A stretch of 64,000 nt of DNA from Catenuloplanes atrovinosus (lineage in GTDB: Bacteria; Actinomycetota; Actinomycetes; Mycobacteriales; Micromonosporaceae): assembly GCF_031458235.1 (NCBI RefSeq), contig NZ_JAVDYB010000001.1, forward strand, positions 5,380,001 to 5,444,000. The letters run 5' to 3'. A program made the translations under genes and the position numbers. The notes under the pieces are model-generated. The model did no database searches. It was not told the origin of the DNA and worked only from the letters and a program-made list of their open reading frames with translations. Positions 1-24,782 of this stretch are shown here, in pieces. Every line of letters begins with the position of its first letter. Within the stretch, counting starts at the first letter, position 1.

Positions 1-2
1 TC

Positions 3-323
3 CTCGTCCAGGTGAAGAACCCCTTCGGCTTCTTCATCGTCGGCCTCTACGGCACGCTGTTCTTCCTCCTCGCCCGCTACGGCTCGCCCGGGGTCCGCGC
101 GCTGGGGGCGTACACGCTGATCTGGTTCCTGCTCCTCGGCGGCGTGATCCACACCGCGCTCGGCAACCTGCGCGCGGGCGACTCCGTCAACCTGCGCAAG
201 GCCACCTACATCCCGGTCGGGTTCTGGGGCGCGTTCTGGTGGCTGGCGACGCTGGCAGCGCTGATCTACGGCGGTGGCGTCCTGTTCGGAATCATCGATC
301 CGGTCTTCCGGCGCGAGCCCTGA
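3..323 (+). CDS. Membrane M50-like peptidase, C-terminal fragment
   Basis: This is the 3' end of a gene whose start lies outside the window; the frame is open to the left edge. The visible ~106 residues form three to four hydrophobic segments separated by short basic loops, ending in a short polar tail (FRREP). The pattern (a Q-V-K-N-P-F-G helix start, two central membrane segments, a basic loop with a D-S-V-N-L-R-K motif, a last membrane segment) matches my recollection of the C-terminal half of actinobacterial M50B-like integral membrane metallopeptidases. The HExxH zinc motif would lie upstream and cannot be checked. The last 32 bases overlap tail-to-tail with the converging ATPase gene on the other strand. 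A GTG at position 12 is internal and is not taken as the true start. Confidence 0.6.
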   Translation, partial: LVQVKNPFGFFIVGLYGTLFFLLARYGSPGVRALGAYTLIWFLLLGGVIHTALGNLRAGDSVNLRKATYIPVGFWGAFWWLATLAALIYGGGVLFGIIDPVFRREP

Positions 324-3300
324 GCACCACCTCTTCCGTCGACAGCGGGCTCGCCGGGTGGTGGGTGAGGCAGAGCGGCGTGCGCAGCTTGCGAGGTGGG
401 GCGCCCTCCGCCGCCAGGTAGAACTCGCCGCTGGTCAGCCGCGCGATGTCGGGCACGTCGCCGCCCTTGGCCTTGGCCATCTCGCGGGCGGTGTCCATCT
501 GGATCGGGCTGTTCAGCCGCCCGTAGAGCTGCGTGGCCGAGTTGCCGGGGATCTGGTTGTGCAGGCCCTTCGGCGACTGCGTCGCGAAGATCAGGCCGAG
601 GCCGTACTTGCGGGCCTGGGAGACCAGCGCGAGCGTGCTGCGCGTGCAGGGCGTCATGCCGCTGGACGGCGCCAGGTTCTGCGCCTCATCCATGATCAGT
701 AGCCCACCGAGCGGCCGGTCACCGGCCGGGTTCCGCTTGATCCAGGCGAACAGCGCCATCTGCAACTGGTTGACGAAGCTCTGCCGCATCTCGTCGCCGC
801 CCAGCCCGACCATGCTGATCACCGACACCCGCGCGCGCTTGCCCGGCGCCGGCGTGAGCAGCATGCCCGGGTCCATCGCGGTACCGGCGCCGCCGAACAG
901 CGGGTCGTTGTACTTCGCGGCGGTCAGCGACTGGGCCAGCCCGTTCGCGATCTTCGCCGCGTCGTCCAGCTCGATGATGTCCTCCGGGAAGTCGGACAGC
1001 GTGTCGATCAGACCCTGGAGGCGGTTGCCGCCCTGCCGCCCGTAGTGCTCGATCGCCCGGCGCAGCACCGCGAGCTGCAGGTTCGCCTTCACCCCGCGCC
1101 CGCTCAGCGCCCGCGGCTCCAGCGACGCGACCGCGGACTCGACCGCCTCGTTGAACTCGTCCGGGTCGTCCCGCACGCCCGTGAAGTCCGGCAGCGCCTG
1201 GAACACCAGCGGGCGCCCGGCGTCGCGCCGCGGCGTCCAGACCACCACGTCCGTGTGGGCCAGGTAGTCGGCCGCCTTCGCCGCGTCGCCGGTGCCCCAC
1301 GCGGCGGGCTCCTCCGGCCACGCGTCGCCCAGCCGGGCCAGGTCGTTGTTCAGGTCCAGCACGATCGAGGACACGCCCCGCAGGGCGCACTCCTCCACGA
1401 TCCGCCGGATCAGCACGGTCTTCCCGGAACCCGAGCCCGCGAAGATCGTCATGTGCTTCCGCAGCGCCTCCAGCCGCAGCGACACGGCGGTTCCGGACCC
1501 GTACCCGTGCCCGATCACGAACTCCGCGGAACCCGCGGCGGCGTCCGGAACCGACTGCCGCGGAATCCGGCCGACCGCCGGCGCGGAGCGCTGATCCGCA
1601 CCGCCGGCGTCCTCCTGCGGGGCGGTGCCGGTCGCGGACCGGCCGGGATTCCACGGCGGCGCCGGGGCCGGGTCGCCGAACATCGTGGCCCGCTCGTTCG
1701 CCGGACCGGTGCGGTCGGCGAACACGGCGGCGCGGTCACCCGCCGCGGCGGCCCGGTCGCCGGACGCGGGTGGCGGGCCGTCGAACGCGGTCGCGCGGTT
1801 GGCGGGCGGCGCCGGCCGCCCCGCCGGCACGGCGACGCGCTCCGGCAGCCAGGCGTCCGCGTCGGCGAGCGCGGCCTGGAACACCGCGACGCTGCGGGTC
1901 GGGCGGCGGGCGGCCAGCCAGGCCCGCAACCCGGCGGACGGGTCCTGGAACATCATCCGCAGCGCGAACAGGATGCGCAGGTCCTCGTCGTCCAGCGGCA
2001 GCCGCACGCCGCCGTCCTTGGCGAACGCGGCCACCGCCTCGCGCATCTTCGGCCCGCCGGTCAGCTCCGTGTTGCGGAGCACGAACAGCTTGCGCTTCGG
2101 TACGCGATGGTCGAGCCCCGCGGCCGTGCACGCCTTGCGCAGCCGGGCCAGCGCCGCGTTCCCGTGGTGGCCGTCGCTGATCGCCCGGAAGCACCAGTGC
2201 ACCTGGTCCTCCCGCTCCTCGTCCACGGTCAGCCGCAGGCGCGCGTGCAGCGACGGCCGCGAACTGGGCGGCGGGTCGAGGCTGAACCGCTCCCCCGCCT
2301 CGCCGCGCTCGGTGATCCAGGCGTGCAGCCCGGCCGCGAGCAGCGCCGGGATCTCCACGTCCTCCCGCGCGCCGGACAGCGGCCCGGTCACGTCCGCCAC
2401 CCGCTTGAACTCCACGAACCGCGCGTCGAACCGGTCCAGCTCCCCGATCGCCACGTCCGGCACCGGCACCTCGACCCGGGGCGCCGCCGGCCCGCCGAGC
2501 CGGGTCAGCTCGCGCACCTCGCCGGCGAGCAGGCAGGCGCGCACGTGCGCGTCGATCTCGATCAGCAGTTGGCGCGGCGTGAAGTCGCCGACGTCCGCGA
2601 ACGCCTGCTCGCTCACCGGCCACGTCGGGTACGGCGGCCGGAACCCGATCTCCTCGAACCGGACCGCGAACCGCTTCTCGACGATCTCCCGCCCCAGCCG
2701 GTCGTCCTTGATCGTGCTGAGGATCGGGGAGAGCCGGAAGCGGCTGCCCACCGAGGCCGTCGCCTTGGTCCGGACCAGCGTCCAGGTCGCCGGGATGCAG
2801 GAGACCACGGTCAGCGTGCGGCGGGTCCGCTCACGCAGCGTCATCAGGCCACCCGCGATCTGCTCCAGCGCGGCCGACTCCGCCGGGTCGAGGGACTGGG
2901 CGGCGGCGCCCACGCCGGTACCCGCCGACTGCGCGATCAGCGTGTCGATCTGGTCGACCGCGATCACGGTCGGGCCGGTCAGCGCCAGCAGCCGGGAGAG
3001 CTCCTGGACGATCTCCTCCGACGTCTTCGGCATCCGGCGCATGCCCCACGCCGCGCGCTCCCCCGGCGCGCCCTCGTCCAGCAGCGCGAAGAAGCCGTCC
3101 GCCAGGTCCTGGTGCAGCACGTCGTCGGACGCGCTCAACGCCAGCGCCCGGGCGGTGTCCTGGCTGTTCCGGCCCACGTACGGGTCGTACGCCGAGAGGC
3201 CCTGGATGAACGCGTCCAGCGTCTCGCGGGTCAGCTCCGTCTCGCCCATGAACGCGCGCCGGGCCAGCCGGGGCGCGCCGACCTTCGAGGAGAGCCGGCG

Positions 3301-3681
3301 CAGCAGCAGTTGCAGCTGGGTCTCGCTGCCCGGGATCGGCCGCGCCAGGCCGTCCAGCATGGAGGCCAGCACGCTGTCCCAGAATCCCTTCGAGTCGAGC
3401 AGGCTGACCAGGAAGAAGTAGCCGCCGAGCTGAGACGTGTGCTGGCGGACCCAGCCCAGCATGTGGGTCTTGCCGGAGCCGGGCGGCCCCTGCAGCACCA
3501 CGCCGATCGGGCTGCTCTCCCGGCTCCTGTCCGCCTCGGCGATCCCCTCCACCACGTTCTGCACCACCGTGGGGTGCAGCCCGTCCACGTGGAACCGCGA
3601 CGGGCGCCAGACGTCGTCCGGCACCCGGGCCCAGTCGAAGTTGAGCGCCTGCAGGGCGGCCCGCTCCTCCTCGGTCATCAC
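292..3681 (-). CDS. Dual ATPase: N-terminal AAA domain plus C-terminal HerA/FtsK-like DNA translocase
   Basis: The protein has 1129 residues and two separate P-loop modules. The first has Walker A GPPGSGKT at residues 65-72 and Walker B VIAVDQID at about 239-246, inside an AAA/ORC-like fold. A middle region (about 410-610) has no motif I can name. A Pro/Ala-rich linker (about 615-715) follows. The C-terminal module starts with F-V-I-G-x-G-x-G-S-G, has Walker A AGSGSGKT at 748-755, Walker B LLIMDEAQ at 994-1001 and an ATQSPK sensor-like motif at about 1033. This is the layout of HerA/DUF87 hexameric translocases. It is the last gene of a four-gene operon; its GTG start overlaps the preceding stop by 4 bases, and an ATG one codon later is possible. 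HerA-type pumps usually work with a nuclease, and a nuclease is encoded two genes upstream. The role (repair or phage defence) is inferred. Confidence 0.8.
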   Translation of the reverse strand: MMTEEERAALQALNFDWARVPDDVWRPSRFHVDGLHPTVVQNVVEGIAEADRSRESSPIGVVLQGPPGSGKTHMLGWVRQHTSQLGGYFFLVSLLDSKGFWDSVLASMLDGLARPIPGSETQLQLLLRRLSSKVGAPRLARRAFMGETELTRETLDAFIQGLSAYDPYVGRNSQDTARALALSASDDVLHQDLADGFFALLDEGAPGERAAWGMRRMPKTSEEIVQELSRLLALTGPTVIAVDQIDTLIAQSAGTGVGAAAQSLDPAESAALEQIAGGLMTLRERTRRTLTVVSCIPATWTLVRTKATASVGSRFRLSPILSTIKDDRLGREIVEKRFAVRFEEIGFRPPYPTWPVSEQAFADVGDFTPRQLLIEIDAHVRACLLAGEVRELTRLGGPAAPRVEVPVPDVAIGELDRFDARFVEFKRVADVTGPLSGAREDVEIPALLAAGLHAWITERGEAGERFSLDPPPSSRPSLHARLRLTVDEEREDQVHWCFRAISDGHHGNAALARLRKACTAAGLDHRVPKRKLFVLRNTELTGGPKMREAVAAFAKDGGVRLPLDDEDLRILFALRMMFQDPSAGLRAWLAARRPTRSVAVFQAALADADAWLPERVAVPAGRPAPPANRATAFDGPPPASGDRAAAAGDRAAVFADRTGPANERATMFGDPAPAPPWNPGRSATGTAPQEDAGGADQRSAPAVGRIPRQSVPDAAAGSAEFVIGHGYGSGTAVSLRLEALRKHMTIFAGSGSGKTVLIRRIVEECALRGVSSIVLDLNNDLARLGDAWPEEPAAWGTGDAAKAADYLAHTDVVVWTPRRDAGRPLVFQALPDFTGVRDDPDEFNEAVESAVASLEPRALSGRGVKANLQLAVLRRAIEHYGRQGGNRLQGLIDTLSDFPEDIIELDDAAKIANGLAQSLTAAKYNDPLFGGAGTAMDPGMLLTPAPGKRARVSVISMVGLGGDEMRQSFVNQLQMALFAWIKRNPAGDRPLGGLLIMDEAQNLAPSSGMTPCTRSTLALVSQARKYGLGLIFATQSPKGLHNQIPGNSATQLYGRLNSPIQMDTAREMAKAKGGDVPDIARLTSGEFYLAAEGAPPRKLRTPLCLTHHPASPLSTEEVVLRARAGRPDR

Positions 3682-4325
3682 ACTCCGATCGCCAGCAGGT
3701 GCTTGTCCTGACCGCCGCTGCGCACCGCCGCGTCGATCTCGGCGGCGGTGAGCGTCTTCTGGTTGTCCTCCGGCGCCAGGTGCACGCCGTCCTCGCGGGA
3801 GAGCCGCTTGAGCGCCTCGTCCAGCTCCGCACGCGGCACGTCGGCGAAGTGCGGCCGCAGCGTCGCCAGGCTCACCCAGGCACCGCGGTCACTCGCCAGC
3901 GACGCGTAGACCTCCCGGATTCGCTCCGTCAGGCCGTCCGCCCGCGCCGGCTCGGCCCGTTGCGCCGGCACCACCGAGCCCTGCGCGAGCGCCTCGCCGA
4001 ACGTCTGGAACTGGGTCTTCGGCAGCACCCGGTCCCGCATCGCCGCGTGGAACGCGGACAGCGCGGCGCCCAGCACGCGCGGCGTGGACCGCGGGAAGTG
4101 CAGGTCGCCCTCCATCAGCGCCCAGCCCTTGTCGCCGAGCGCGTGCACGAGGATCCGGCCCTCCTTGCGGCTCTCCAGATAGCCGAGCCGGTTGAGCTTG
4201 TCCCGGCTCGGCTTCTTCAGCTCGACCCCGAAGTCCTTCACCAGCTCGGTGTTGGGGATCTCCCGCGCCTCGGACATGAGCAGGATGAGCAGCGCGCTCT
4301 CGCTGGCGGTGAGGCTGTCGGTCAT
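3678..4325 (-). CDS. Winged-helix-like protein of the STAND/nuclease/HerA operon
   Basis: This is a 215-residue soluble protein. Residues ~5-75 look like a winged helix of MarR/PadR type: two helices around L-T-A-S-E-S-A-L-L, a recognition-helix-like stretch, then a beta wing around E-S-R-K-E-G-R-I. Residues ~130-205 look like a second helix-turn-helix-like unit (G-A-W-V-S-L-A-T-L-R-P-H-F followed by A-E-L-D-E-A-L-K-R-L). There are no catalytic motifs. The ATG overlaps the upstream nuclease stop (ATGA), has a GAGAGGG ribosome site about 8 bases ahead, and its own stop overlaps the start of the HerA gene. Its place between a nuclease and a DNA translocase suggests a DNA-binding adaptor or an operon regulator. 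I do not recognise a named family. Confidence 0.75.
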   Translation of the reverse strand: MTDSLTASESALLILLMSEAREIPNTELVKDFGVELKKPSRDKLNRLGYLESRKEGRILVHALGDKGWALMEGDLHFPRSTPRVLGAALSAFHAAMRDRVLPKTQFQTFGEALAQGSVVPAQRAEPARADGLTERIREVYASLASDRGAWVSLATLRPHFADVPRAELDEALKRLSREDGVHLAPEDNQKTLTAAEIDAAVRSGGQDKHLLAIGV

Positions 4326-5308
4326 GGTTGGTGCCCTCTCAGGTGGTCGTGTCGTCGTTGGTGGATGAAGGAGCCGATCTGGCGTACGACCGCCTCGACG
4401 TCGTGGCGTACCCGCGCGTTGGTGAATCGCAGGACGGCGAAGCCGTCGAGCTGAAGCTGCACGTCCCGCTGCCGGTCGGCCTCGAACCGCTCCGGCCGGC
4501 AGTGCTCCGGCCCGTCGATCTCCACGACGCAGCGCTCGTCCCGCCACAGCAGGTCCAGCCGCACGGGGCTGGCCAGCGCGTGCGACTGGTACGTCTGATT
4601 CCAGGCGCGCCCGGCCGCCCACGGGTGCCGGGCCAGCGCGGCCTCCAGCGCCGCCTCGGACGCGCTGCGCGGGTGCGGGCGCCCGGCGACCGGCGCGATC
4701 GCGGCGTCCGCCGGTGCCGACGGCAGCCGGGCCACGCTCAGCCGGTCGACCGTGCGCAGCGGCGCACCGCACAGCCACACGCCGATGCCGGCGCGGTCCG
4801 CCAGCCACTCCGCGCCGGACACCACCGCGCGTTCCCCGGCCGCGCCCAGGCCGTCCGGCAGCCGGATCAGCAGCACCAGCCGCGCACGGCCCAGCCCGTC
4901 CGCGACCGCGCGGGCCAGGCCCCGGGCCCGGATCTCCACGGCGAAACGGCGCCGTGCCGGTACGCCGGACAGCGCCGCCGCGGCCAGATCCGCCAGGAAC
5001 GGCCCGAAGTGGACGGTGCGCGCCGCGTGCTCGGCCGCGAGCGCGCGGACCGCCGCGAGCCCGGCGCCACCGGGCGTGTCCAGGTGCTCCGCGCCCGGCA
5101 GCCACGCCGGGAACAGGCCGGTCGCGGCCGTCTCCAGCTCGTCCAGGGCCGCCGCGACGACGCCGTCGACCCGGTGCGCGGCGCGCAGCCGGTGGCCGAG
5201 CACCGCGGGCAGGTCCGGTCCGCCGCGCGCGGCGAGCAGCGCGATCCGGTCCGGGTCGCCGCCGCGCACCTGCACGACCCGGTCGACCGGCAGCGCGGTG
5301 AGCATCAC
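4322..5308 (-). CDS. PD-(D/E)XK nuclease of DUF559/Vsr-like type
   Basis: The protein has 328 residues. The last ~115 form a DUF559-like endonuclease fold: a leading S-E-A-A-L-E helix (E218), R-L-D-L-L-W with D252, the core V-V-E-I-D-G-P-E-H with E263 and D265, then R-F-E-A-D-R-Q-R-D and a final beta strand V-L-R-F. This fits a PD-(D/E)XK active site with all acidic residues present, so the enzyme is probably active. The first ~200 residues are Ala/Leu-rich and match no domain I recognise; they could be a protein-interaction module. The gene is the second of four in an operon and overlaps by 4 bases at both ends. Start is GTG at 5308, or ATG one codon later. DNA as substrate is inferred from the fold and from the HerA partner. 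Confidence 0.8.
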   Translation of the reverse strand: MMLTALPVDRVVQVRGGDPDRIALLAARGGPDLPAVLGHRLRAAHRVDGVVAAALDELETAATGLFPAWLPGAEHLDTPGGAGLAAVRALAAEHAARTVHFGPFLADLAAAALSGVPARRRFAVEIRARGLARAVADGLGRARLVLLIRLPDGLGAAGERAVVSGAEWLADRAGIGVWLCGAPLRTVDRLSVARLPSAPADAAIAPVAGRPHPRSASEAALEAALARHPWAAGRAWNQTYQSHALASPVRLDLLWRDERCVVEIDGPEHCRPERFEADRQRDVQLQLDGFAVLRFTNARVRHDVEAVVRQIGSFIHQRRHDHLRGHQP

Positions 5309-7458
5309 GGTGCGCCCTCCGCGTCCGTGCCGTCCGGGTTGATGCCGAAGACGCGCAGCAGGTGCAGCGTCTCGCGGTCGGTCTCCTCGCGCGCGGTGAG
5401 CAGCGCCAGGTAGCGGTCGATCGCGCCGGGCGTGCCCGCGTTCACCTCGGCCAGCAGTGCGTCCGCGGCGCCGAGGTCGAACAGCAGCGCGGTGAGTTCT
5501 CGGGCGGCGTCGTCGTCGCCGGCGTCGACCCGGGCGCGCAGCGCGTCCGCCTGGCGGGCCGCGGCCTCGGTCTGGCCGGACGCGCCGTCGGACATCAGCT
5601 TGTTGTAGCGGCGGGCGGCGGCCTCGTCGCGCTCCGCGCGCGCCTTCAGCTCGGCGGTCCGGCCGTGCACCGCGAGCAGGTCGGCGAGCTGTTCCGCGGC
5701 GTACCGGTGGCCGCGGTCGGCGCGCTCCCGCAGCTCGTGCAGCGCGCCCCGGTCGACTAGCAGGTCGACCAGTTCCTCGGCGGCCAGCGCGTCACCGGCG
5801 TCCGCGCGCTCGCGCAGCGTGGCGGCGCGCCCGGCGTCGGTGAGCAGTTCGTCGAGCGCGTCCGCCGCGTACGGACGGAGCCGGTCGGCACGGCTTCTCA
5901 GCTCGCACAGTTCGGCGTGGCGGTCGCGCAGCGCGGATGCCGGGCTGACCGCCATCCGGCGGACCAGCACGTCGATCGCCTCGTCCAGCCGGTCCTGCCG
6001 GGCGAGCAGCGCGGCGAGGTCGAGCGTGGCCAGGTCGTTGCGCTCCGGGAGGCGGCGCAGCGCGGCCTCCGCGTACCGGTAGCGCATGCGGGACTGCGCG
6101 GCGACCGCGAGCCGGCGCAGGTCGTCCGGGTTTGTCACGTGGCGCAGCAGCGCGTTCCACAGGCTGGGCGGCGGGCAGCTGGTGCGGTGGACGCGCCGGA
6201 TGTGCTGGGCGAGGAAGTCGGCTATCACGTAACCGTCGAGCGCGCCCGCGCGCCGGGCGTACGGCGCGAGCGCGGTGACGCCGCCCTTGAGCTTGGTGGT
6301 GGCGTGCGGCAGTGCCTCGCTGAGCCAGGACTCGGGCGGTGCCGCGCGGTCGCTGTGGCCGAGGTAGCCCTCGATCGCCTCGCGGAGCAGCGCCTCCGGC
6401 AGCGGTGATCCGACGCCGAGCCGGCGCGCGTCGGCCGCCGCGGTGATCACGGCCTGGGCGTACGGGTTCGGCGCGTGCTCCCACCACTTGACCAGCGCGG
6501 GCGCGCCGGCGAGTGCCTGCGGCAGCCCGGTCCCGCCGCCGGACTCCAGCGCCTCCCGGATGCGGTTGTCCGTGGCGGCCAGGGCCATGGCGGTCTCCCG
6601 CTCGCGGTCGGAGAGCGCCGCGTGCACGTCGATCACGATGGCGGAGTCGAGCAGTTGCCGGTCGTGCAGGTACTTGTCGGGGCCGGCCGGGCGGCGCAGC
6701 GCGGTGCGCGGCAGGTACTCCTCCGACCAGAGCGTCCCGACGATGATCATCCCGGCCCGGCGCAGCCCGTCCAGCACCGCGCGGGTCAGCGGCGGGTCGG
6801 CGCCGAGGAAGTTCTGCAGCTCGTCCAGCCACAGCACGGTCCGCTCGGTGGGCGCCTCGTAGGCGCGGATCACCTCGCGGGTGCCGGCCGGTTGCAGCAG
6901 CCACCAGTCCGGCACCACGGCGAGGACCGCCTCGTAGAGCGAGCGCGTCTTCCCGGTCGACGAGCCGCCGACCATCAGCACGAAGCAGCCCTCGTCCACG
7001 CCCTTCGCGATGTGTGCGCGGAGTTCGTCGTCGAAGTCGCGGCCGACATAGGCCGGCAGTTCGCTGGCGGATTCGCCGGCGCGGATCGACGCGTGGATGC
7101 CGAGCGTGCGGGGTGCGGCGTCGCGGCATCGTCCCGCGTTCTCCGGGCCGGTGCCGGCGGCGGCGTCCAGGCGCCGCCACACCTCGCGCACCCGGTCGCG
7201 CGCGCCGTCGTGGATCGGCCAGGCCGCCAGCAGCCGTTCCAGCAGCGCCCTCCGGACCGGGCGGCGACCGCTCAGGGCGTCGGTGACCGCGCCGCGCCGC
7301 AATTCCCGGTCGCCCGGCCGGTGCCGGCCCGCCTCCGCCTCTTCCAGATCGGCGAAGCTCATTCCGGTGCCCTGGTGGATCAGGCTCAGCCAGACCGCGA
7401 AATCCGGCCAGGTGCGGATCTCGGGAAGATCAGCATTGGCGGAGAACAGCGTGCTCAA
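5305..7458 (-). CDS. STAND-like NTPase with N-terminal helical/HTH segment and C-terminal helical repeats
   Basis: The protein has 717 residues and three parts. Residues ~15-100 form a helical, XRE-like segment of the kind seen at the front of actinobacterial STAND proteins (W-P-D-F-A-V-W-L then G-M-S-F-A-D-L-E-E-A). Residues ~135-420 form a P-loop NTPase with Walker A GGSSTGKT (164-171) and Walker B TVLWLDELQ (207-215). Residues ~440-700 are Ala/Leu-rich helical repeats; from ~530 units of about 35 residues recur (R-E-R-A-D-A-G-D-x-x-A-A-E-E-L), like TPR/SEL1 solenoids. A switch NTPase with a solenoid often senses a partner or invader, which is inference here. It is the first gene of the four-gene operon. 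The start is a TTG that directly follows a GAGGGG stretch, so the exact start is uncertain. Confidence 0.75.
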   Translation of the reverse strand: MSTLFSANADLPEIRTWPDFAVWLSLIHQGTGMSFADLEEAEAGRHRPGDRELRRGAVTDALSGRRPVRRALLERLLAAWPIHDGARDRVREVWRRLDAAAGTGPENAGRCRDAAPRTLGIHASIRAGESASELPAYVGRDFDDELRAHIAKGVDEGCFVLMVGGSSTGKTRSLYEAVLAVVPDWWLLQPAGTREVIRAYEAPTERTVLWLDELQNFLGADPPLTRAVLDGLRRAGMIIVGTLWSEEYLPRTALRRPAGPDKYLHDRQLLDSAIVIDVHAALSDRERETAMALAATDNRIREALESGGGTGLPQALAGAPALVKWWEHAPNPYAQAVITAAADARRLGVGSPLPEALLREAIEGYLGHSDRAAPPESWLSEALPHATTKLKGGVTALAPYARRAGALDGYVIADFLAQHIRRVHRTSCPPPSLWNALLRHVTNPDDLRRLAVAAQSRMRYRYAEAALRRLPERNDLATLDLAALLARQDRLDEAIDVLVRRMAVSPASALRDRHAELCELRSRADRLRPYAADALDELLTDAGRAATLRERADAGDALAAEELVDLLVDRGALHELRERADRGHRYAAEQLADLLAVHGRTAELKARAERDEAAARRYNKLMSDGASGQTEAAARQADALRARVDAGDDDAARELTALLFDLGAADALLAEVNAGTPGAIDRYLALLTAREETDRETLHLLRVFGINPDGTDAEGAP

Positions 7459-7488
7459 CCCCTCGGTCGCGGGCCGGGATTCCGGGAC

Positions 7489-7517
7489 AGCCTAGAAGCA
7501 CGCGGGTACGGAATCCA
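7489..7517 (-). promoter_or_regulatory. Possible promoter of the STAND/nuclease/HerA operon
   Basis: On the minus strand a TAGGCT (7494-7489) resembles the HrdB-type -10 TANNNT. It sits about 31 bases upstream of the TTG start. A TGGATT lies 17 bases further up in the -35 position and is a poor match. Transcription would begin near 7482, leaving a leader of about two dozen bases. Confidence 0.25.
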
Positions 7518-7766
7518 TAGACGCCGCGGGGTGGGCCCGATCGGGTGTGGAGGGTCCGCCGAACGGCCAATCCGTTCCGGGTGAATGGGACCGGGAAATG
7601 ATCGTCCACACGCTACTCGCGGGATTCGCATAACGGTGGAATAGCGCGGACCAACGGCCCGCAACCGGGGACCTCCGGCCCTGATCGACAACGCGCGCGG
7701 CGGGACATGCTTGATCACGCAGCCGCGGCCGGAGCCACCGGCCGGGAAGCCCGAGGGAGAAACGCG

Positions 7767-7955
7767 ATGCATGCGACCAGCCAGTCCACCGTTCTCGCAC
7801 CGGCTCGCCTGCGCGGCGGCTTCGGCGCCTACCGCGGCACCACCGGCCGCACCCGCCGTAACCCGGCGGTCCCGGTGCCGGGCCCGCGCTCGGCCGCCGC
7901 GCCCGCCCCGGCCGAGCCGGACGCCGACTGGTTCGTCCACCCGTTCGTCGACTGA
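7767..7955 (+). CDS. Small protein of 62 residues, unknown function
   Basis: An ATG with a good ribosome site (GAGGGAGA, 7 bases upstream) opens a 62-codon frame. The product is basic in the first half (R-L-R-G-G-F-G-A-Y-R-G, then G-R-T-R-R-N), Pro/Ala-rich in the middle and ends in an aromatic, acidic tail (D-A-D-W-F-V-H-P-F-V-D). It has no membrane segment, no cysteines and no signal peptide. A strong hairpin lies 33 bases after the stop, so the gene looks like a self-contained transcription unit. It sits alone in a 677-base gap between the accessory operon and rbpA; apart from its terminator I see nothing else in that gap. I do not recognise the family. A peptide-precursor role is possible, but nothing in the sequence shows it. 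Confidence 0.5.
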   Translation: MHATSQSTVLAPARLRGGFGAYRGTTGRTRRNPAVPVPGPRSAAAPAPAEPDADWFVHPFVD

Positions 7956-7988
7956 CGCCGCGGACGTTTTCCCACCCCCGAGGAGCCC

Positions 7989-8034
7989 GAGTGGTCAGCC
8001 GGCCGCGGCTGGGTGACCACTCAGGCCTTTTCCT
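7989..8034 (+). terminator. Hairpin terminator after the small gene
   Basis: A perfect 9-base stem GAGTGGTCA/TGACCACTC (7989-7997 with 8014-8022) continues inward after one mismatch with further pairs around a CGCG loop. It is followed by AGGCCTTTTCC. Stem length, GC content and the T-rich tail fit an intrinsic terminator. Confidence 0.7.
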
Positions 8035-8135
8035 GCCCACCGCGACACCGGCAGGGAGGCCGGCCACGGCCGACCGGTGCCCGCGGGAGCATGCGGGAAG
8101 CGCCCGGCCGGAAGCGGGAAGATGAAAAGGGTTTT

Positions 8136-8480
8136 CTAGACCTCGCCGCGCCGGGCCCGGACGGCCGCTAGCGCCTCGGCGAGGATGGCCTCGCCGTCCT
8201 CGGGCGAGCGACGCTCCTTCACGTAGGCGAGGTGCGTCTTGTACGGCTCGGCCCGCGCCGGTCCGGGCGGGTTCTCCCGGTCGCGGCCGGCCGGCTGCCC
8301 GCACCGCGGGCAGTCCCAGGACTCCGGCGCCGGCGCGTCCGCGGCGAGCAGCAGTTCCGTGGTGTGGCCGTTGCCGCACCAGTAGCTGACGGGGACGCGC
8401 GGCGCGGGTTCGCTTCTCTCGGTGGGGCGCACGGGGCTGGAGCCCACGCGGGTGCCTCGGATAGCGCTGCCGTTCGGCAC
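8136..8480 (-). CDS. rbpA: RNA polymerase-binding protein RbpA
   Basis: The 114-residue product matches RbpA, the actinobacterial activator that binds RNA polymerase and group 1/2 sigma factors and stabilises the open promoter complex. Recognisable parts are the N-terminal N-G-S-A-I-R-G-T-R-V-G, the core zinc-finger-like region with W-C-G-N-G-H and W-D-C-P-R-C-G-x-P-A-G, and the C-terminal sigma-interacting segment E-P-Y-K-T-H-L-A-Y-V-K-E-R-R-S then A-I-L-A-E-A-L. The length is typical. The start is the GTG that gives V-P-N-G-S-A-I-R-G. A GAGGAG lies about 7 bases upstream, and longer frames run into the secG terminator. Confidence 0.93.
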   Translation of the reverse strand: MPNGSAIRGTRVGSSPVRPTERSEPAPRVPVSYWCGNGHTTELLLAADAPAPESWDCPRCGQPAGRDRENPPGPARAEPYKTHLAYVKERRSPEDGEAILAEALAAVRARRGEV

Positions 8481-8555
8481 GGTCTCGCTCCTCTGTCCGT
8501 TGGGGATTCGGTGGAAGCGGTTACGGTCCTGGCCGGCGGTCTCACCGGTTTCGGA

Positions 8556-8604
8556 CAATAAAAACTCTGCGCCTGGTCCCGAGGACGGGGACCAAGCGCA
8601 GAGT
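8556..8604 (-). terminator. Intrinsic terminator of secG
   Basis: The arms 8564-8580 and 8587-8604 pair almost perfectly (ACTCTGCGC with GCGCAGAGT, then CTGGTCCC with GGGGACCA, with a small irregularity) around a short GAGGAC loop. On the minus strand the stem is followed by TTTTTATTG. This is a classical stem plus U-tract, which is rare in such GC-rich DNA. Confidence 0.9.
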
Positions 8605-8623
8605 GTACGACTATGAATGCGTT

Positions 8624-8881
8624 TCAGGCACCGTCGACGGCCAGTTTCAGCCAGAAGCCGAGGCCCACGATGCAAGCGAACCACACGATTCCGACCAGAA
8701 CGGTATAGCGGTCGAGGTTCTTCTCCGCCACGGACGAACCGGCCAGGCTGGAGGTCACGCCGCCGCCGAACATGCTGGACATGCCGCCACCCTTGCCCCG
8801 GTGGAGCAGGATCAGCATGGTCAGAATGGCGCTGGTGATGATCAGCAACACGATCAACGTGTAGGCGAACCAGATCGGCAT
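8624..8881 (-). CDS. secG: Preprotein translocase subunit SecG
   Basis: This is an 85-residue protein with two membrane segments (residues ~3-24 and ~55-77) joined by the SecG loop: L-L-H-R-G-K-G-G-G-M-S-S-M-F-G-G-G with S-L-A-G-S-S-V-A-E-K-N-L-D-R. SecG is the small auxiliary subunit of the SecYEG channel and acts in the cytoplasmic membrane. The start M-P-I-W-F-A-Y is chosen because it opens the first membrane helix; an upstream start would add 13 polar residues. The gene follows tpiA, as in many actinobacteria, but a hairpin separates the two, so read-through or its own promoter must supply it. Confidence 0.92.
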   Translation of the reverse strand: MPIWFAYTLIVLLIITSAILTMLILLHRGKGGGMSSMFGGGVTSSLAGSSVAEKNLDRYTVLVGIVWFACIVGLGFWLKLAVDGA

Positions 8882-8961
8882 GATCGGGTCGTTCCTCTCT
8901 TCGGGCGGGGCCGTCGACAAGGATAGCGGGCGGTCGAAGTCGCGGTCACGCGGGGCACGCG

Positions 8962-8989
8962 GAAGGGGGCCCGGTAGTGGGCCCCCTTC
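8962..8989 (-). terminator. Hairpin after tpiA
   Basis: A perfect 11-base stem (8962-8972 with 8979-8989) around a 6-base loop begins 12 bases after the tpiA stop. No T-run follows, so it is of the stem-only type common in actinobacteria. Confidence 0.75.
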
Positions 8990-9001
8990 TTCGGAACCGC
9001 G

Positions 9002-9793
9002 TCAGCGGGCGACGTGTTCCGGGAAGCGAACGATCTGCACGAACTGCTCGGCGTCGATGCTCGCGCCGCCGACCAGAGCGCCGTCCACGTCCGGCTGCGC
9101 CATGATCTGGGCGACGTTGTTCGCCTTGACCGAGCCGCCGTAGAGCACGCGGACCGTGGCCGCGGTCTCCTCGCCGTACTTCTTCGCCAGGCGGGCGCGG
9201 ATGTCGCCGCACACCTCCTGCGCGTCCTCCGGCGTGGCGGTCTTGCCGGTGCCGATCGCCCAGACCGGCTCGTACGCGATGACGATCTTCTCGACCTCGG
9301 CGGCGGTGAAGCCGTCGAGCCCGGCCTCCAGCTGGTCGGCGCAGTGGGCGATGTGCCCGCCGGCCTCGCGCACGTCGAGGCCCTCGCCGATGCAGAGGAT
9401 CGGGGTCAGGTCGTTGGCCAGCGCGGCCTTCGCCTTCGCGTTGACCAGCGCGTCCGACTCGCCGTGGTACTCACGGCGCTCGGAGTGACCGACCACCACG
9501 TAGGTGCAGCCGAGCTTCGCCAGCATGGCACCGGAGATCTCGCCGGTGTACGCGCCGGACTTGTGCGCCGAGATGTCCTGCGCACCGTAGCCGATCAGCA
9601 GCTTGTCCCCGTCGACCGCGGTCTGCACGGTGCGGATGTCGGTGAACGGCGGGAGCACCACGGTCTCCACGTCGGTCAGCTGCTTCTCGGTGAGCCCGGC
9701 GGCCAGCTTCTGGACGAGAAGGTTCGCCTCGAAGTGGTTGAGGTTCATCTTCCAGTTGCCGGCCATCAGCGGCCGGCGCGACGAGGTCGCCAT
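9002..9793 (-). CDS. tpiA: Triosephosphate isomerase
   Basis: The 263-residue enzyme interconverts dihydroxyacetone phosphate and glyceraldehyde 3-phosphate in glycolysis. The TIM barrel landmarks are present: M-A-G-N-W-K-M-N with the active-site Asn and Lys near the start, the catalytic His in V-V-G-H-S-E-R-R, the catalytic Glu in [12 protein letters not shown] and the phosphate-binding Y-G-G-S-V-K near the end. The ATG overlaps the pgk stop by one base (TGATG), so translation is probably coupled. A GTG one codon earlier is possible. It is part of the gap-pgk-tpiA unit. Confidence 0.97.
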
Positions 9794-10989
9794 CACTTCT
9801 CCAAAGCGGCGATGCCGGGGAGGGTCTTGCCCTCCAGGTACTCCAGGGAGGCGCCGCCACCGGTGGAGATGTGGCCGAAGGCCGCCTCGTCCAGGCCGAG
9901 CGTGCGCACGGCCGCGGCCGAGTCGCCGCCGCCGACCACGGTGAAGCCGTCGACCTTGGTGATGGCCTCGGCGACGCCCCGGGTGCCGGCCGCGAACGGC
10001 GCCAGCTCGAAGACGCCCATCGGGCCGTTCCAGAAGACGGTCTTCGCCTTGGCGATCTCGCCGGAGAACAGCGCGACCGACTCGGGCCCGATGTCGAGGC
10101 CCAGGCGATCAGCGGGAATCCCGTCAGCGGGAACGACGTCGTGATCGGCGTCAGCGGCGAAGGAGGAGGCCGCCACCACGTCCACCGGCAGCACGATGCG
10201 ATCGCCGGCACGCGCCAGCAGGTCGCGGCAGGTGTCGACCATCTCGTCCTGGAGCAGCGACTTCCCGACCTCGTGGCCCTGGGCCTTGAGGAACGTGAAG
10301 CACATGCCGCCGCCGATGAGCAGCTTGTCCACCTGCGGCAGCAGCGCCTCGATCACGGCCAGCTTGTCGCTGACCTTCGAGCCGCCGAGCACCACCACGT
10401 ACGGCTTCTCCGGCGAGGTGACCTTCTTCAGCACCTCGACCTCGCGCTGAACCAGCCCGCCCGCGTAGTGCGGGAGCAGGGCCGGCACGTCGTAGACGCT
10501 GGCGTGCTTGCGGTGCACCGCACCGAAGCCGTCGCCCACGTAGACGTCCGCGAACGCGGCCAGCTTCGCCGCGAAGGCCTGGCGCGCGGCCTCGTCCTTG
10601 CTGGTCTCGCCCTCGTTAAAACGCAGGTTCTCCAGCAGCAGGACGTGCCCGTCCTCCAGCGCGGCGACCGCGGTCTCCGCACCGGGGCCGACCGTGTCCT
10701 CCGCGTAGACGACGGCGGAGCCGAGCAGCTCACGGAGCCGCTCCGCGACCGGCGCGAGCGTGAACGCGGGGTCCGGCGCGCCCTTGGGACGGCCGAGGTG
10801 GGACATGACGATGACGCGGGCGCCCGCGTCGCGGAGCGCGACGATGGTCGGCAGCACCGCGCGGATGCGGCCGTCGTCGCTGATCACGCGCGGGTCGGAG
10901 TCCTTCTCGAACGGGACGTTCAGGTCGGCGCGCACGAGCACGCGCCGACCCGAGACACCCTCGCCGAGCAGGTCGTCGAGAGTCTTCAC
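9793..10989 (-). CDS. pgk: Phosphoglycerate kinase
   Basis: This 398-residue cytoplasmic enzyme makes ATP from 1,3-bisphosphoglycerate and ADP. Diagnostic stretches are the N-terminal [11 protein letters not shown] with the substrate-binding Arg and Asn, [33 protein letters not shown] and the C-terminal nucleotide-binding [11 protein letters not shown]. The length is normal. It starts with GTG 12 bases after the gap stop and runs directly into tpiA, so gap, pgk and tpiA are one transcription unit. Confidence 0.97.
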
Positions 10990-11001
10990 GGTCGTCGTCC
11001 C

Positions 11002-12316
<1,315 letters not shown>

Positions 12317-12356: not shown

Positions 12357-13337
12357 TCAGCAGGCGAGCATCTCCGGGGTGACCGCCGCCTCGGTGTCCG
12401 GTATTCCCAGATCACGCGCGCGCTTGTCGGCCAGCGCGAGCAGCCGCCGGATGCGCCCGGCGATCGCGTCCTTGGTCAGCGGCGGGTCGGCGAGCGCGCC
12501 CAACTCCTCCAGCGACGCCTGCCGGTGCTGAAGCCGCAGGTGACCGGCGGAGGTCAGGTGGTTCGGCGCGTCCTCCGCGAGGATCTCCAGCGCGCGGGTG
12601 ACGCGCGCGGCGGCCGCGACCGCGGCGCGGGCGGAACGGCGCAGGTTCGCGTCGTCGAAGTTCGCCAGCCGGTTCGCCGTGGCGCGGACCTCGCGGCGGA
12701 CCCGGCGCTCCTCCCAGGAGAGCACGCTGGAGTGCGCGCCGATCCGGGTGAGCAGCGCGGCGATCGCGTCACCGTCCTTGACCACCACCCGGTCCACGCC
12801 GCGCACCTCGCGCTGCTTGGCCGTTATCCCGATCCGCCGGGCCGCGCCGACCAGCGCGAGCGCCGACTCCGGGCCAGGGCAGGTGATCTCCAGCGCGCAG
12901 GAGCGGCCCGGCTCGGTGAGCGAACCGTGCGCCATGAACGCGCCGCGCCACGCCGCCACCGCGCAGCAGGCGTTGCCGGAGATCACGTGGTGCGGGAGGC
13001 CGCGCACCGGCCAGCCGCGCACGTCGAGCAGCCCGGTCTGGCGGGCCAGCGCCTCGCCGTCCTTGACCACCCGGACGATGAAGTGGCTGCCCTTGCGCAG
13101 GCCTCCGGAGGCGAGCACGTGCGTCTCACTGGGGTAGCCGTACACCTCGGCGATCTCCCGCCGGAGACGGCGCGCCGCGACGCCGGTGTCGAGCTCGGCC
13201 TCCACGACCACCCGGCCGGACACGATGTGCAACCCGCCCGAGAAGCGCAGGAGCGCGGTCATCTCGGCCCGCCGGCAGCACGGCTTCGCCACTTCCACGC
13301 GGCTCAGCTCGTCCTTGACGGCCGCAGTCATCGCCAT
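12357..13337 (-). CDS. whiA: Sporulation/cell-division regulator WhiA
   Basis: The 326-residue product is WhiA, a DNA-binding protein with a homing-endonuclease-like N-terminal domain and a C-terminal helix-turn-helix. In Streptomyces it works with WhiB to switch on division and sporulation genes. Recognisable stretches are [56 protein letters not shown] and the [21 protein letters not shown]. The ATG is preceded by GAGGTGA at 8 bases and matches the known family N-terminus. The position after rapZ and yvcK is the standard one in Gram-positive bacteria. A TTGAGA/AAGGAT pair close upstream could be its own promoter but would leave a very short leader. Confidence 0.96.
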
Positions 13338-13386
13338 ATCGTCGTCACCTCGTGCACGCAATCCTTGAGTTGTATTGAGCCATTCT

Positions 13387-13445
13387 CAACCTGGCCTGTG
13401 GCCGGACGGCAGGGCGCCGTTCGACGGTCCGGGTGCGCCAGGTTG
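13387..13445. repeat. Inverted repeat between yvcK and whiA
   Basis: The 8-base arms CAACCTGG (13387-13394) and CCAGGTTG (13438-13445) are separated by 43 bases with further internal pairing. A run of six A follows on the plus strand, i.e. a T-run precedes the structure on the transcribed strand, the wrong order for a yvcK terminator. It could be an operator or RNA structure in the whiA leader. Confidence 0.4.
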
Positions 13446-13482
13446 AAAAAAGCTCACCGTCCCAGCTCGCCTCGCCCATGGC

Positions 13483-14451
13483 TTAACGATCGACTTCCAG
13501 CACCGGCACCAGCGCGGCGCCGAGTGTGACCGGATCATGCCGCGGGCTGCCGTCCGGCACCGCGACGGGCGCCAGCACCAGCCGGGCACCCAGCGATTCT
13601 GCCGCACCCGCGACCGGTTCGGGGTCACCGACCGCCGCGGGATCGGCCAGTACCACGTCCGCGCAGAATCCCGGCAGGTACCACCCGAGCGCGGCCAGGT
13701 GATCGGCGGCGGAGAGGCCGAGCGTCTCCTTCTCCGCCGCGAGGTTGAGCAGCACCAGCCGCCGCGCCCGGCTGGCCAGGATGGCCGTGGCCAGCTCCGG
13801 GACCAGCAGGTGCGGGATGACGCTGGTGTACCAGCTGCCCGGCCCGAAGATCAGCCAGTCCGCCTCGGCCACGGCGGTGAGCGCCTCCGGGCAGGCGGGC
13901 GGGTCCTTGGGCAGCAGCCGGACCTGCTGCACGGTGCCGCGGGTGACCGCCACCTCGTGCTGGCCGTGCACGGTGCTCACCTCGTCCGGCGCGGCCGGGT
14001 CGGCGCCGCGCACGTCCGCCTCCAACTGCACGCCCTGCTTCGACATCGGCAGCACCCGGCCCTGCGCGCGGACCAGGCCGGCCGCGTGGTCGAGCGCGGC
14101 GATCGGGTCGCCGAGCAGCTCCATCAGGCCGCAGAGCAGCAGGTTGCCGACCGCGTGACCGGTCAGCGGGTCCTCGTCGCCGAAGCCGGCCGCGGTGAAG
14201 CGGTGCTGGAGCAGCGCGGCGGTCAGCGCCGACGTCTCATCCTCCGCGGAGAGCGCGGCCAGCGCCTGGCGCAGGTCGCCGGGCGGCAGGATGCCCCGCT
14301 CCGCGCGAAGCCGGCCGCTGGAGCCGCCGTTGTCACCCACGGTGACCACGGCGGTCAGCTCCAGATCCAGTTCCGGCCGGATCCGCCGCAGCGCCCGCAG
14401 CGACGCGCCGAGCCCGTGCCCGCCGCCGAACGCGACGACCTTCACCGTCAC
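13483..14451 (-). CDS. yvcK: YvcK/CofD-like protein (gluconeogenesis factor family)
   Basis: The 322-residue protein belongs to the YvcK family, which binds UDP-sugars. In Bacillus and mycobacteria it is needed for normal cell-wall synthesis on gluconeogenic carbon sources. The fold starts with V-V-A-F-G-G-G-H-G-L and continues with the signature T-V-G-D-N-G-G-S-S-G-R-L-R-A-E-R-G-I-L-P-P-G-D-L-R. Also present are G-N-L-L-L-C-G-L, G-P-G-S-W-Y-T-S-V-I-P-H-L-L and N-L-A-A-E-K-E-T. Its ATG overlaps the rapZ stop by 4 bases (ATGA). The rapZ-yvcK-whiA order is strongly conserved. It could also be annotated as a 2-phospho-L-lactate transferase-like protein, but there is no F420 context here. Confidence 0.92.
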   Translation of the reverse strand: MTVKVVAFGGGHGLGASLRALRRIRPELDLELTAVVTVGDNGGSSGRLRAERGILPPGDLRQALAALSAEDETSALTAALLQHRFTAAGFGDEDPLTGHAVGNLLLCGLMELLGDPIAALDHAAGLVRAQGRVLPMSKQGVQLEADVRGADPAAPDEVSTVHGQHEVAVTRGTVQQVRLLPKDPPACPEALTAVAEADWLIFGPGSWYTSVIPHLLVPELATAILASRARRLVLLNLAAEKETLGLSAADHLAALGWYLPGFCADVVLADPAAVGDPEPVAGAAESLGARLVLAPVAVPDGSPRHDPVTLGAALVPVLEVDR

Positions 14452-24150: not shown

Positions 24151-24360
24151 GTGGCCAAGGTGCTCATCGACGTCGACGACGACGCTCTCGCCGAGGCGTC
24201 GAGGCTGCTCGGTACGAAGACCAAGAAGGACACGGTGAACGCCGCGCTGCGGACGACCGCGGAGCAACTTCGGAGGGCGCAGGCTCTCAGCCGGCTCGCC
24301 GAGCTCGGCGAGGCGGGCGCGTTCGACGAACTGCTGGACAAGAGCACATATCGGGCATGA
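24151..24360 (+). CDS. vapB: VapB-type antitoxin
   Basis: The 69-residue protein starts [16 protein letters not shown], a beta strand and helix of ribbon-helix-helix type. [12 protein letters not shown] follows as second helix, and a charged C-terminal half ([14 protein letters not shown]) would wrap the toxin. This is the pattern of DUF2191-like VapB antitoxins. The GTG has GGAGG 5 bases upstream. The stop overlaps the vapC start by 4 bases (ATGA), so antitoxin is made before toxin. Expected to neutralise VapC and repress the operon through the inverted repeat just upstream. Confidence 0.85.
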
Positions 24361-24782
24361 CGACGGCCAGGTTCCTGATCGACACCAGCGCGGTCGTGCG
24401 GCTCCTGCGGAACCGTGCCGTCAGAGAACGCTGGCAGTCCCAGATCACCGCCGGGGTGATCGGCATGTGTCCGCTCACCGAGCTCGAGTTGCTCTACACC
24501 GCGCGCTCCAAGGCCGATCGTGAGGAGTTGGTCGGCCTGCTCGACGCCGCCTTCACCTGGGTGGGCATACCTGACCGCGGCTACGCTCAGGCCTCCCGGA
24601 CACAGCAGCACCTGACGGACGACGGCACCCATCGCTCCGCGGGGACCGTCGATCTGCTCGTGGCGGCGACCGCCCACCTCGAGGGTCTGACCCTCGTCCA
24701 CTACGACCACGACTTCGAAGCGATCGCGAGGGTTACCGGGCAGCCCACCGTCTGGCTGGCGCCGCCCGGTTCCATCCCCTGA
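24357..24782 (+). CDS. vapC: VapC toxin, PIN-domain ribonuclease
   Basis: The 141-residue PIN-domain protein should cut RNA (tRNA or rRNA in studied VapC toxins) with Mg2+. The acidic active-site residues are visible: D in F-L-I-D-T-S-A-V-V near the N-terminus, E in [10 protein letters not shown] in G-T-V-D-L-L-V-A-A and D in [10 protein letters not shown]. All four conserved positions are filled, so the toxin looks active. It is translationally coupled to vapB. A strong hairpin ends the operon 20 bases after the stop. Confidence 0.9.

Follow-up and report, generated by a model that had tools for sequence, protein, structure and literature searches.

The window analysed here, a stretch of 64,000 nucleotides from the actinobacterium Catenuloplanes atrovinosus (contig NZ_JAVDYB010000001.1, positions 5,380,001 to 5,444,000), carries an operon of four genes that encode a STAND-like NTPase, a DUF559 nuclease, a winged-helix protein and a large protein in which an AAA+ ATPase is fused to a HerA ATPase. 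Comparison with related loci shows that the working constant of this operon is the pair of winged-helix and AAA-HerA genes, with the nuclease and the STAND gene each optional. We lean, if slightly, towards reading the operon as a mobile anti-invader (phage or plasmid) defence system of the Orc/Cdc6-HerA kind, working as proposed below.

An initial annotation of this DNA had taken the exact set of four genes as the working unit. In 23 loci found through exact peptides of the window's large protein, a search that favours near relatives, the winged-helix and HerA genes were present in every case (23/23), with the nuclease in 18/23, the STAND gene in 10/23 and both in 5/23; the four-gene set as a unit was rejected on these counts. 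The more general expectation, that HerA and the nuclease share one operon-like unit with a DNA-binding partner, was supported. A wider sample of 78 HerA loci comprised these 23, 39 loci from the family (40 places with a winged-helix match, mostly high-scoring, were fetched, of which L090 carries no HerA gene and was excluded), 19 loci from the class, a second copy in the same genome and the window itself, less 5 duplicates (L062, L064, L065, L066 and L082). Winged-helix and HerA genes were adjacent in 74/78 of these loci and overlapped in 65 of the 74 (49 by 4 bases, 16 by 1 base); in L084 the winged-helix match falls in the gap before HerA, where the gene finder called no gene. The gap between nuclease and winged-helix genes was at most 25 bases in 49/49 pairs, and STAND and nuclease genes overlapped in 8/9 pairs. 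Where a STAND gene occurred without the nuclease, it directly preceded the winged-helix and HerA pair, by no more than 22 bases (6/6 such pairs), and thus seems tied to this core and not to the nuclease. In the window, three 4-base overlaps (5305-5308, 4322-4325 and 3678-3681) join the open frames of the four minus-strand genes, and the four-gene operon that had been annotated was borne out in all its frames and coordinates. Given their recurrence across loci, these overlapping junctions are no chance arrangement.

The partners of the core differ from locus to locus. Among the 74 rows of a HerA tree, from which proteins shorter than 950 amino acids (aa) were left out, the partner was a nuclease in 33, a nuclease with CRISPR genes in 4, STAND and nuclease in 7, STAND in 6, a trypsin/WD40 protein in 7, a TIR-DUF559 fusion in 3, AIPR in 3, PDC-M55 in 2, DUF4365 in 1 (set by hand) and CRISPR alone in 1, and 7 had none. 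Partners are steady within HerA clades and change between clades, a pattern that does not show frequent swapping. Partner families were matched on one or two representatives per group, with models for AIPR/AbiU, Cas7g, Cas56g, Cas10, PDC-M55A/B, WD40 and Trypco1; PADLOC E-values were 1.9e-156 for PDC-M55A, 1.5e-109 for AbiU and 2.1e-91 for PDC-M55B. A single protein in L150 joins TIR_2 (1.4e-34) to DUF559 (1.4e-12), and DUF4365 and Abi_2 were also matched among the partners. The AIPR genes lie 18, 3 and 10 bases behind HerA in L092, L096 and L098, and the M55 pair lies 24 bases before the winged-helix gene in L028, gaps short enough to make one operon likely in each case.

Some neighbours of the core recur in patterns of their own. 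Cas7g and Cas56g genes (type I-U/I-G; matched on L070) follow the winged-helix and HerA pair in the same direction in L070, L073, L074, L078 and L086, and these five loci belong to one HerA clade, as does L081, where Cas10 follows. A divergent WD40 protein of about 1300 aa (WD40 tested on L072) occurs in seven loci (L072, L075, L077, L084, L091, L093 and L142), with a small Trypco1-type gene beside it in three of the seven (L091, L093 and L142); that these proteins start with a trypsin-like domain was read from their N-termini and from the Trypco1 genes next to three of them. Genes resembling Ser/Thr kinases, as read from their sequence, stand divergently beside AAA-HerA in four loci: L145, L149 and L154 have two each, and L155 has one, where its contig ends. 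Two of the AAA-HerA genes with such neighbours are unusually long (1447 and 1412 aa).

Defence genes near the locus, which the initial annotation had proposed to look for, were found with PADLOC at 1e-10: genes next to the core matched 23 models (70 proteins; e.g., AbiU, PDC-M55B, LmuC, PDC-S27, Cas10, PDC-M60C, Aga_Helical-REase, PDC-S48 and Cas7g), as against 4 models for genes further out (70 proteins; mad3, Cmr5, C3a156 and mad8). The candidates were 95 adjacent and 105 distant proteins of at least 100 aa, with each cluster taken once; proteins above 1400 aa were dropped and the first 70 of each set scanned, so that later loci, including those from the class, lie outside the scan. We discounted as generic DEDDh, HEAT-ARM_XIII (WD40) and Csa3 of the 23, and C3a156 of the 4.

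The active sites of nuclease and HerA are kept throughout. The nuclease matched Pfam DUF559 (E = 2e-11), and its profile matched PDB entry 3hrl (1e-10). Among 49 aligned nucleases, the window's included and sequences under 270 aa left out, residues E218, D252, E263, D265, H269, D278, R281 and D282 were invariant (49/49) and E222 was present in 48; E263 and D265 belong to the intact DUF559/Vsr-like active site that had been annotated. On the large protein, Pfam found AAA_22 (1.3e-9) and AAA_16 in the AAA half and HerA/DUF87 (4e-9), and its best PADLOC match was mad8 (5.1e-23) over residues 722-1093. In 75 aligned AAA-HerA proteins, the window's and a Methylobacterium protein included, K754, D998 and E999 of the HerA half occurred in 75/75 and Q1035 in 73/75, which leaves this half with an intact active site. 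In the AAA half, K71 and D243 were kept in 74/74 covering rows, and in all 74 D243 was followed by Gln. The Glu after the Walker B Asp is usually the catalytic residue; since Gln replaces it here, the AAA half can probably bind ATP but is poor at hydrolysing it.

An AlphaFold2 model of the large protein, built from 22 sequences (mean predicted local distance difference test, pLDDT, 73.9; predicted template-modelling score, pTM, 0.52), gave as top Foldseek rows HerA-NurA from Thermococcus (the best), HerA and SIR2-HerA, with TdpAB, VirB4 and DUF4297-HerA below. Lower rows held, among other AAA+ proteins, the archaeal ORC2 entries 1w5t and 1w5s (1w5t at rank 36, 7.6e-4), the BrxC complex 9zll and Cdc6 (1fnn, 2.3e-3); the ORC/Cdc6 rows have low template-modelling scores (TM-scores) and come without residue ranges, and we would assign this fold match to the N-terminal half. 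Between the two ATPases the model places a domain (residues 437-561) whose order of helices and strands fits a restriction-endonuclease fold. No catalytic motif is conserved in its alignment, sequence searches gave no profile match to it, and hhalign of the domain against the nuclease and other parts found nothing; it is a candidate for an inactive restriction-endonuclease fold.

For the 215-aa protein, AlphaFold2 modelled two winged-helix-like domains (mean pLDDT 81, pTM 0.48), and the 50 best-listed Foldseek rows were mostly winged-helix regulators (MarR-, ArsR- and PaaX-like; best E 2.6e-3, none at or below 0.001), in agreement with the earlier guess of a DNA-binding-like protein. Weak Pfam winged-helix matches, to DUF6293_C and MCM4_WHD, were obtained in 8/50 members each, and no kinship with DndG, SspB or FokI was seen among the 50 Foldseek rows. 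Against PDB sequences the best 60 of 179 matches of the winged-helix profile were calmodulins (7e-4 at best), which we took as chance helix matches and set aside.

The STAND identity of the first gene, suggested by weak matches, is the weakest of the four labels. Walker A and Walker B are invariant in 15/15 aligned STAND-like proteins and TPR_14 was matched in 11/15, while nSTAND3 was weakly matched in 7/15 (best 0.065) and HTH_31 in 1/15 only; the window's own protein had no Pfam match, and no PADLOC model, Avs included, matched it at E up to 1. Of the annotated STAND NTPase, the P-loop and the TPR-like repeats stand and the STAND label is weakly matched; that the operon encodes two P-loop proteins holds, with the motifs kept in the aligned relatives of both. 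The gene finder preferred an ATG at 7362, yet the TTG start is plausible, as the N-terminus continues in the relatives L060 and L059. In three Phytohabitans loci (L003, L007 and L019) a gene with a PNP_UDP_1 phosphorylase domain (PADLOC PDC-M60C, tested on L003) stands divergently before the STAND gene.

Table 1. Coordinates of the operon's genes and domains in the window
Feature	Position	Strand	Remarks
STAND-like P-loop NTPase, accessory gene	5305..7458	-	717 aa, TTG start; HTH-like (helix-turn-helix) segment in N-terminal region, NTPase domain, TPR-like C-terminal half
DUF559 / Vsr-like PD-(D/E)XK nuclease	4322..5308	-	328 aa; N-terminal half conserved, unnamed
Nuclease active-site stretch, D252 to H269	4502..4555	-	Residue alignment
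Two-domain winged-helix protein, constant core	3678..4325	-	215 aa; predicted domains ~7-72 and ~129-213
Fusion of an AAA+ ATPase (fold match to ORC/Cdc6) with a HerA ATPase, constant core	292..3681	-	1129 aa
AAA+ domain, ~residues 37-386	2524..3573	-	Walker A G70 K71 T72; AlphaFold2, Foldseek
Walker B Asp243-Gln244 instead of Asp-Glu	2950..2955	-	Alignment
Middle domain (alpha/beta, residues 437-561), putative restriction-endonuclease fold without activity	1999..2373	-	AlphaFold2 helix/strand order
HerA ATPase domain, ~residues 720-1120	322..1524	-	Walker A K754, Walker B D998 E999, Q1035; Foldseek, PADLOC

Upstream of the operon lies a core chromosomal stretch with rbpA, secG, tpiA, pgk, gap and whiA (read from translations); downstream, a convergent frame (3-323) overlaps the end of the AAA-HerA gene at 292. 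The G+C content at third codon positions (GC3) of the operon, 0.93-0.97, equals that of the neighbour genes, from which we take the window copy to be old. A tRNA-Leu(gag) that ARAGORN placed at 4467-4553, inside the nuclease gene, lies on the active-site codons and has no Rfam match at gathering score (1-12000); it is probably false and was rejected. Elsewhere in the window, two genes at 24151-24782, one small and antitoxin-like and the other PIN-like (both read from sequence), possibly form a VapBC pair.

The distribution of the core is patchy. The winged-helix protein was found in 62/101 sampled genomes of the family (55/89 of those of good quality; 32/44 genera). Its profile matched 8/296 genomes of the phylum, 4 convincingly (at E no weaker than 1e-48; these include the own genome and a relative from the family) and 4 partially (4e-7 or weaker), and the AAA half was found in 21/197 genomes of the class; scoring in these phylum and class scans was confined to the first few candidates of each genome (in the class at most 6). 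A check of co-occurrence by profile search, as the initial annotation had advised, gave a patchy family distribution with defence genes nearby. The same annotation had held that presence in nearly all of the family at this site, with no link to defence loci, would speak against it: this applies in part, within the genus, where one site is used in 5/5 genomes, and not to the family, where the winged-helix protein occurs in 62/101 genomes, operon sites differ between genera and defence genes lie nearby. As a marker of the site, the downstream gene is matched in 92/101 genomes, but it is only inside the genus that these matches are close, at 54-62% identity to the query.

Several copies lie in settings that suggest mobility. 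The second copy in the own genome (L028) shares with the window's 37% identity in the AAA half and 58% in HerA, has a G+C content of 64-65% as against 71-75% in its flanks, and carries PDC-M55A/B before it and a HigA/HigB-like pair behind it (read from sequence). It lies between direct repeats of 573 bases, 85% identical, that correspond to the 5' part of a radical-SAM-like gene (read from sequence), and a Dactylosporangium locus (L015) likewise lies between copies of this gene family. A Methylobacterium aquaticum plasmid carries nuclease, winged-helix and HerA genes, with 38% identity over the large protein; in a Tsukamurella record whose plasmid label is doubtful, the same three genes and a VapB/PIN pair stand between rplN and rpsQ (L187, 5544-11519), and the third plasmid match, a Nonomuraea record of 11.85 million bases, is plainly chromosome-sized. 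No match at 1e-10 was obtained in the 50,697 phage records searched.

The 5' copies of the radical-SAM-like gene bracket cargo in three genera in all: in L028 (on the reverse strand, 4555-5094 and 12418-13749), in L015 (2998-3576, 4780-5334 and 13402-13950) and in L188, where the cargo is a Uma2-like gene (read from sequence). The gene was found in 9/61 family genomes at 1e-20, and its copies perhaps mark a recombination-driven cassette site; no integrase was noticed there, no search for one having been made.

The operon genes are constrained, yet their divergence outpaces that of the genes beside them. In comparisons of the window with four congeners, the ratio of nonsynonymous (dN) to synonymous (dS) substitution rates was 0.21-0.27 for HerA, 0.26-0.37 for the nuclease, 0.24-0.58 for the winged-helix gene and 0.12-0.47 for the STAND gene, as compared with 0.06-0.19 for tpiA, 0.17-0.27 for pgk and 0.13-0.15 for gap (three pairs only). 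dN was 0.08-0.30 in the operon versus 0.01-0.04 for tpiA and 0.01-0.06 for tpiA and pgk together, and dS was also higher in the operon (0.31-0.77) than in tpiA/pgk (0.20-0.25), for which recombination is possible.

For a mobile defence system we infer the complex, the pumping, the cutting, the trigger and the defence itself, as well as a kinship with ORC/Cdc6 beyond the fold match, along the following lines. DNA would be held by the winged-helix protein with its two domains and by the large protein's ORC/Cdc6-like half; the latter, by its fixed Asp-Gln Walker B, would probably be a clamp or switch that stays bound to ATP. HerA would form a hexamer that pumps duplex DNA, and the DUF559 nuclease would dock on HerA and cut the DNA delivered to it; the STAND protein, where present, may have an accessory part as sensor or licence. 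There is no methyltransferase among the four genes (no dedicated search for one was made), and what sets self apart from non-self would therefore probably be the form of the DNA (ends, or intermediates of replication or transfer) or a protein trigger.

We also put forward, more tentatively, a wider proposal: that the two genes form a platform, made of the bipartite winged-helix protein, an ORC-like clamp frozen by the Asp-Gln Walker B and the HerA pump, which would serve as a common loader for lineage-specific killers (DUF559, TIR-DUF559, DUF4365, AIPR/AbiU, the PDC-M55 pair and STAND). An ATP-locked ring of the ORC-like half would hold the DNA of the invader; HerA would then feed this DNA to whichever effector is present, or switch that effector on.

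A number of observations weigh against the reading as a mobile defence system. In the trypsin/WD40 loci, and in L094 with its M55 genes, the partner lies on the other strand and is possibly a mere neighbour, and on the quick HerA tree the partner labels need 9 changes where 8 labels need a minimum of 7 (no shuffle was run). The comparison of adjacent with distant genes is modest and, as it counts PADLOC models rather than matching proteins, gives an indication more than a test. A profile of the AAA half run against PDB gave no ORC/Cdc6 chain in the best 60 of 68 matches, which were short generic P-loop matches. HerA's range of dN/dS overlaps that of pgk. In all five sampled genomes of the genus (the own and four others) the operon keeps one site, separated from rbpA by one or two small genes, and it is ameliorated, as a domesticated function might be. 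Finally, ParA-like genes (read from sequence) follow HerA in L150 and, at a distance of 9 kb, in L015, which would suit a function for a mobile element.

We regard it as somewhat unlikely that the operon is two systems, a nuclease, winged-helix and HerA set to which a STAND defence protein has been joined. The STAND gene is missing from 13/23 loci and was not seen at the Methylobacterium and Tsukamurella loci, and the silence of PADLOC on this protein would fit as well; against this division stand the close spacing of STAND genes before the core where the nuclease is absent (6/6) and their overlap with the nuclease gene where it is present (8/9).

A role of the core in the mobile element itself (replication, segregation or transfer), with the defence genes as mere fellow travellers in variable regions, appears unlikely to us. 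It would agree with the plasmid copy in Methylobacterium, with the islands between gene-fragment repeats and with the ParA-like genes, and Orc/Cdc6 and HerA/FtsK are also described as element functions in the parts of PMC10853773 that treat them. On the other side, the third gene is usually a nuclease whose active site is intact and which lies at most 25 bases from the winged-helix gene (49/49 pairs), the phage records gave no match, and no integrase or relaxase was noticed among the neighbours whose first residues were read, though no search for them was made.

A housekeeping complex for double-strand-break repair in the manner of HerA-NurA, with STAND as a regulator, was the main alternative of the initial annotation; it would explain the best Foldseek row, the one chromosomal site in the genus and the purifying selection on the operon genes, but is disfavoured, and to our mind very improbable, because 39/101 family genomes have no winged-helix match (34/89 of good quality) and the AAA half was not matched in 176/197 class genomes, because sites differ between genera and the own genome holds two diverged copies, because the nuclease is of the DUF559 family, and because split genes occur (HerA in L019 and L143, the nuclease in L017 and L070, some of them possibly sequencing errors).

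If the operon is indeed an anti-invader defence system, it would offer a testable member, in culturable actinobacteria, of the so far computationally predicted Orc/Cdc6-HerA capture class, and its fixed Asp-Gln Walker B would amount to a sharp prediction of the way in which DNA is held by such systems. From the range of partners one would learn how a single DNA-handling core is used with different effectors and without a methyltransferase of its own.

Among known systems, HerA-NurA shares the plan of a pump plus a nuclease, whereas the present locus is patchy and accessory (winged-helix protein in 62/101 genomes, as opposed to broad conservation) and has DUF559 in place of NurA. MADS is an eight-gene set that includes methylation genes; its mad8 is the nearest PADLOC model for the HerA half (5.1e-23), and for none of the other mad models was there a match among the four proteins at E up to 1. 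Avs is set apart by the lack of any PADLOC match to the STAND-like protein at that same limit. The SIR2-HerA and DUF4297-HerA (Nezha) systems likewise combine HerA with a separate effector and match in the Foldseek rows; to our knowledge they have neither an AAA+ half nor a winged-helix protein and use other effectors, and no SIR2 or DUF4297 domain occurs in the four proteins. DUF4297-HerA cleaves double-stranded DNA and hydrolyses ATP, and a section heading of its description states that it defends by abortive infection (PMC11291478); if our reading is true, the present operon would work like it in coupling HerA to a nuclease. The BREX-related capture (BRC) system brings together an ORC/Cdc6 ATPase, a STAND NTPase, a protein with several winged helix-turn-helix (wHTH) domains and HerA, as the operon with its ORC/Cdc6-like and STAND-like parts appears to do, but has PglZ and DUF6079 components according to the relevant part of PMC12839542, and no such family is among the Pfam rows listed for the four proteins.

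No description of DUF559 with HerA as one system was found by title or abstract opening in the open-licence literature, where both words occur once each in PMC6712171 and PMC8861277, and PDC-M55 is not named in the open-licence literature searched. The initial annotation knew of no described system with this exact set. The general design is nonetheless covered by the Orc/Cdc6-HerA/FtsK capture systems predicted in 2024 (Rakesh, Aravind and Krishnan; PMC10853773, from sections of the text, as in what follows), so that the condition set by the initial annotation, placement in a named system, applies in part; the version seen here and the partners it has across lineages may be new. Alike are the AAA+ ATPase with HerA/FtsK, an active restriction endonuclease (REase), a protein with several wHTH domains, mobile neighbourhoods and links to STAND and TIR. 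The operon has the HerA/FtsK ATPase (Pfam, Foldseek), a REase predicted to be active by its DUF559 active-site residues (49/49) and the multi-wHTH protein of a subset, with two domains in the AlphaFold2 model. For the Orc/Cdc6 AAA+ feature, the Foldseek rows (1w5t 7.6e-4, 1fnn 2.3e-3) have low TM-scores and no ranges, and the PDB profile of the AAA half gives generic P-loops only in its best 60 of 68; for the inactive REase between AAA+ core and wHTH, the model offers a fitting domain (437-561), with no sequence match and no wHTH resolved after it. In contrast to the predicted systems, AAA+, middle domain and HerA are one protein here (fusions in various arrangements are mentioned there too), the nuclease is DUF559, where the text of PMC10853773 names only the AbiJ type of active REase, the bipartite wHTH protein occurs in nearly all loci, and the further partners are AIPR/AbiU, PDC-M55, DUF4365 and TIR-DUF559. 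On its predicted domains, the window operon is best placed beside the Orc/Cdc6-HerA/FtsK capture kind, as a variant of it.

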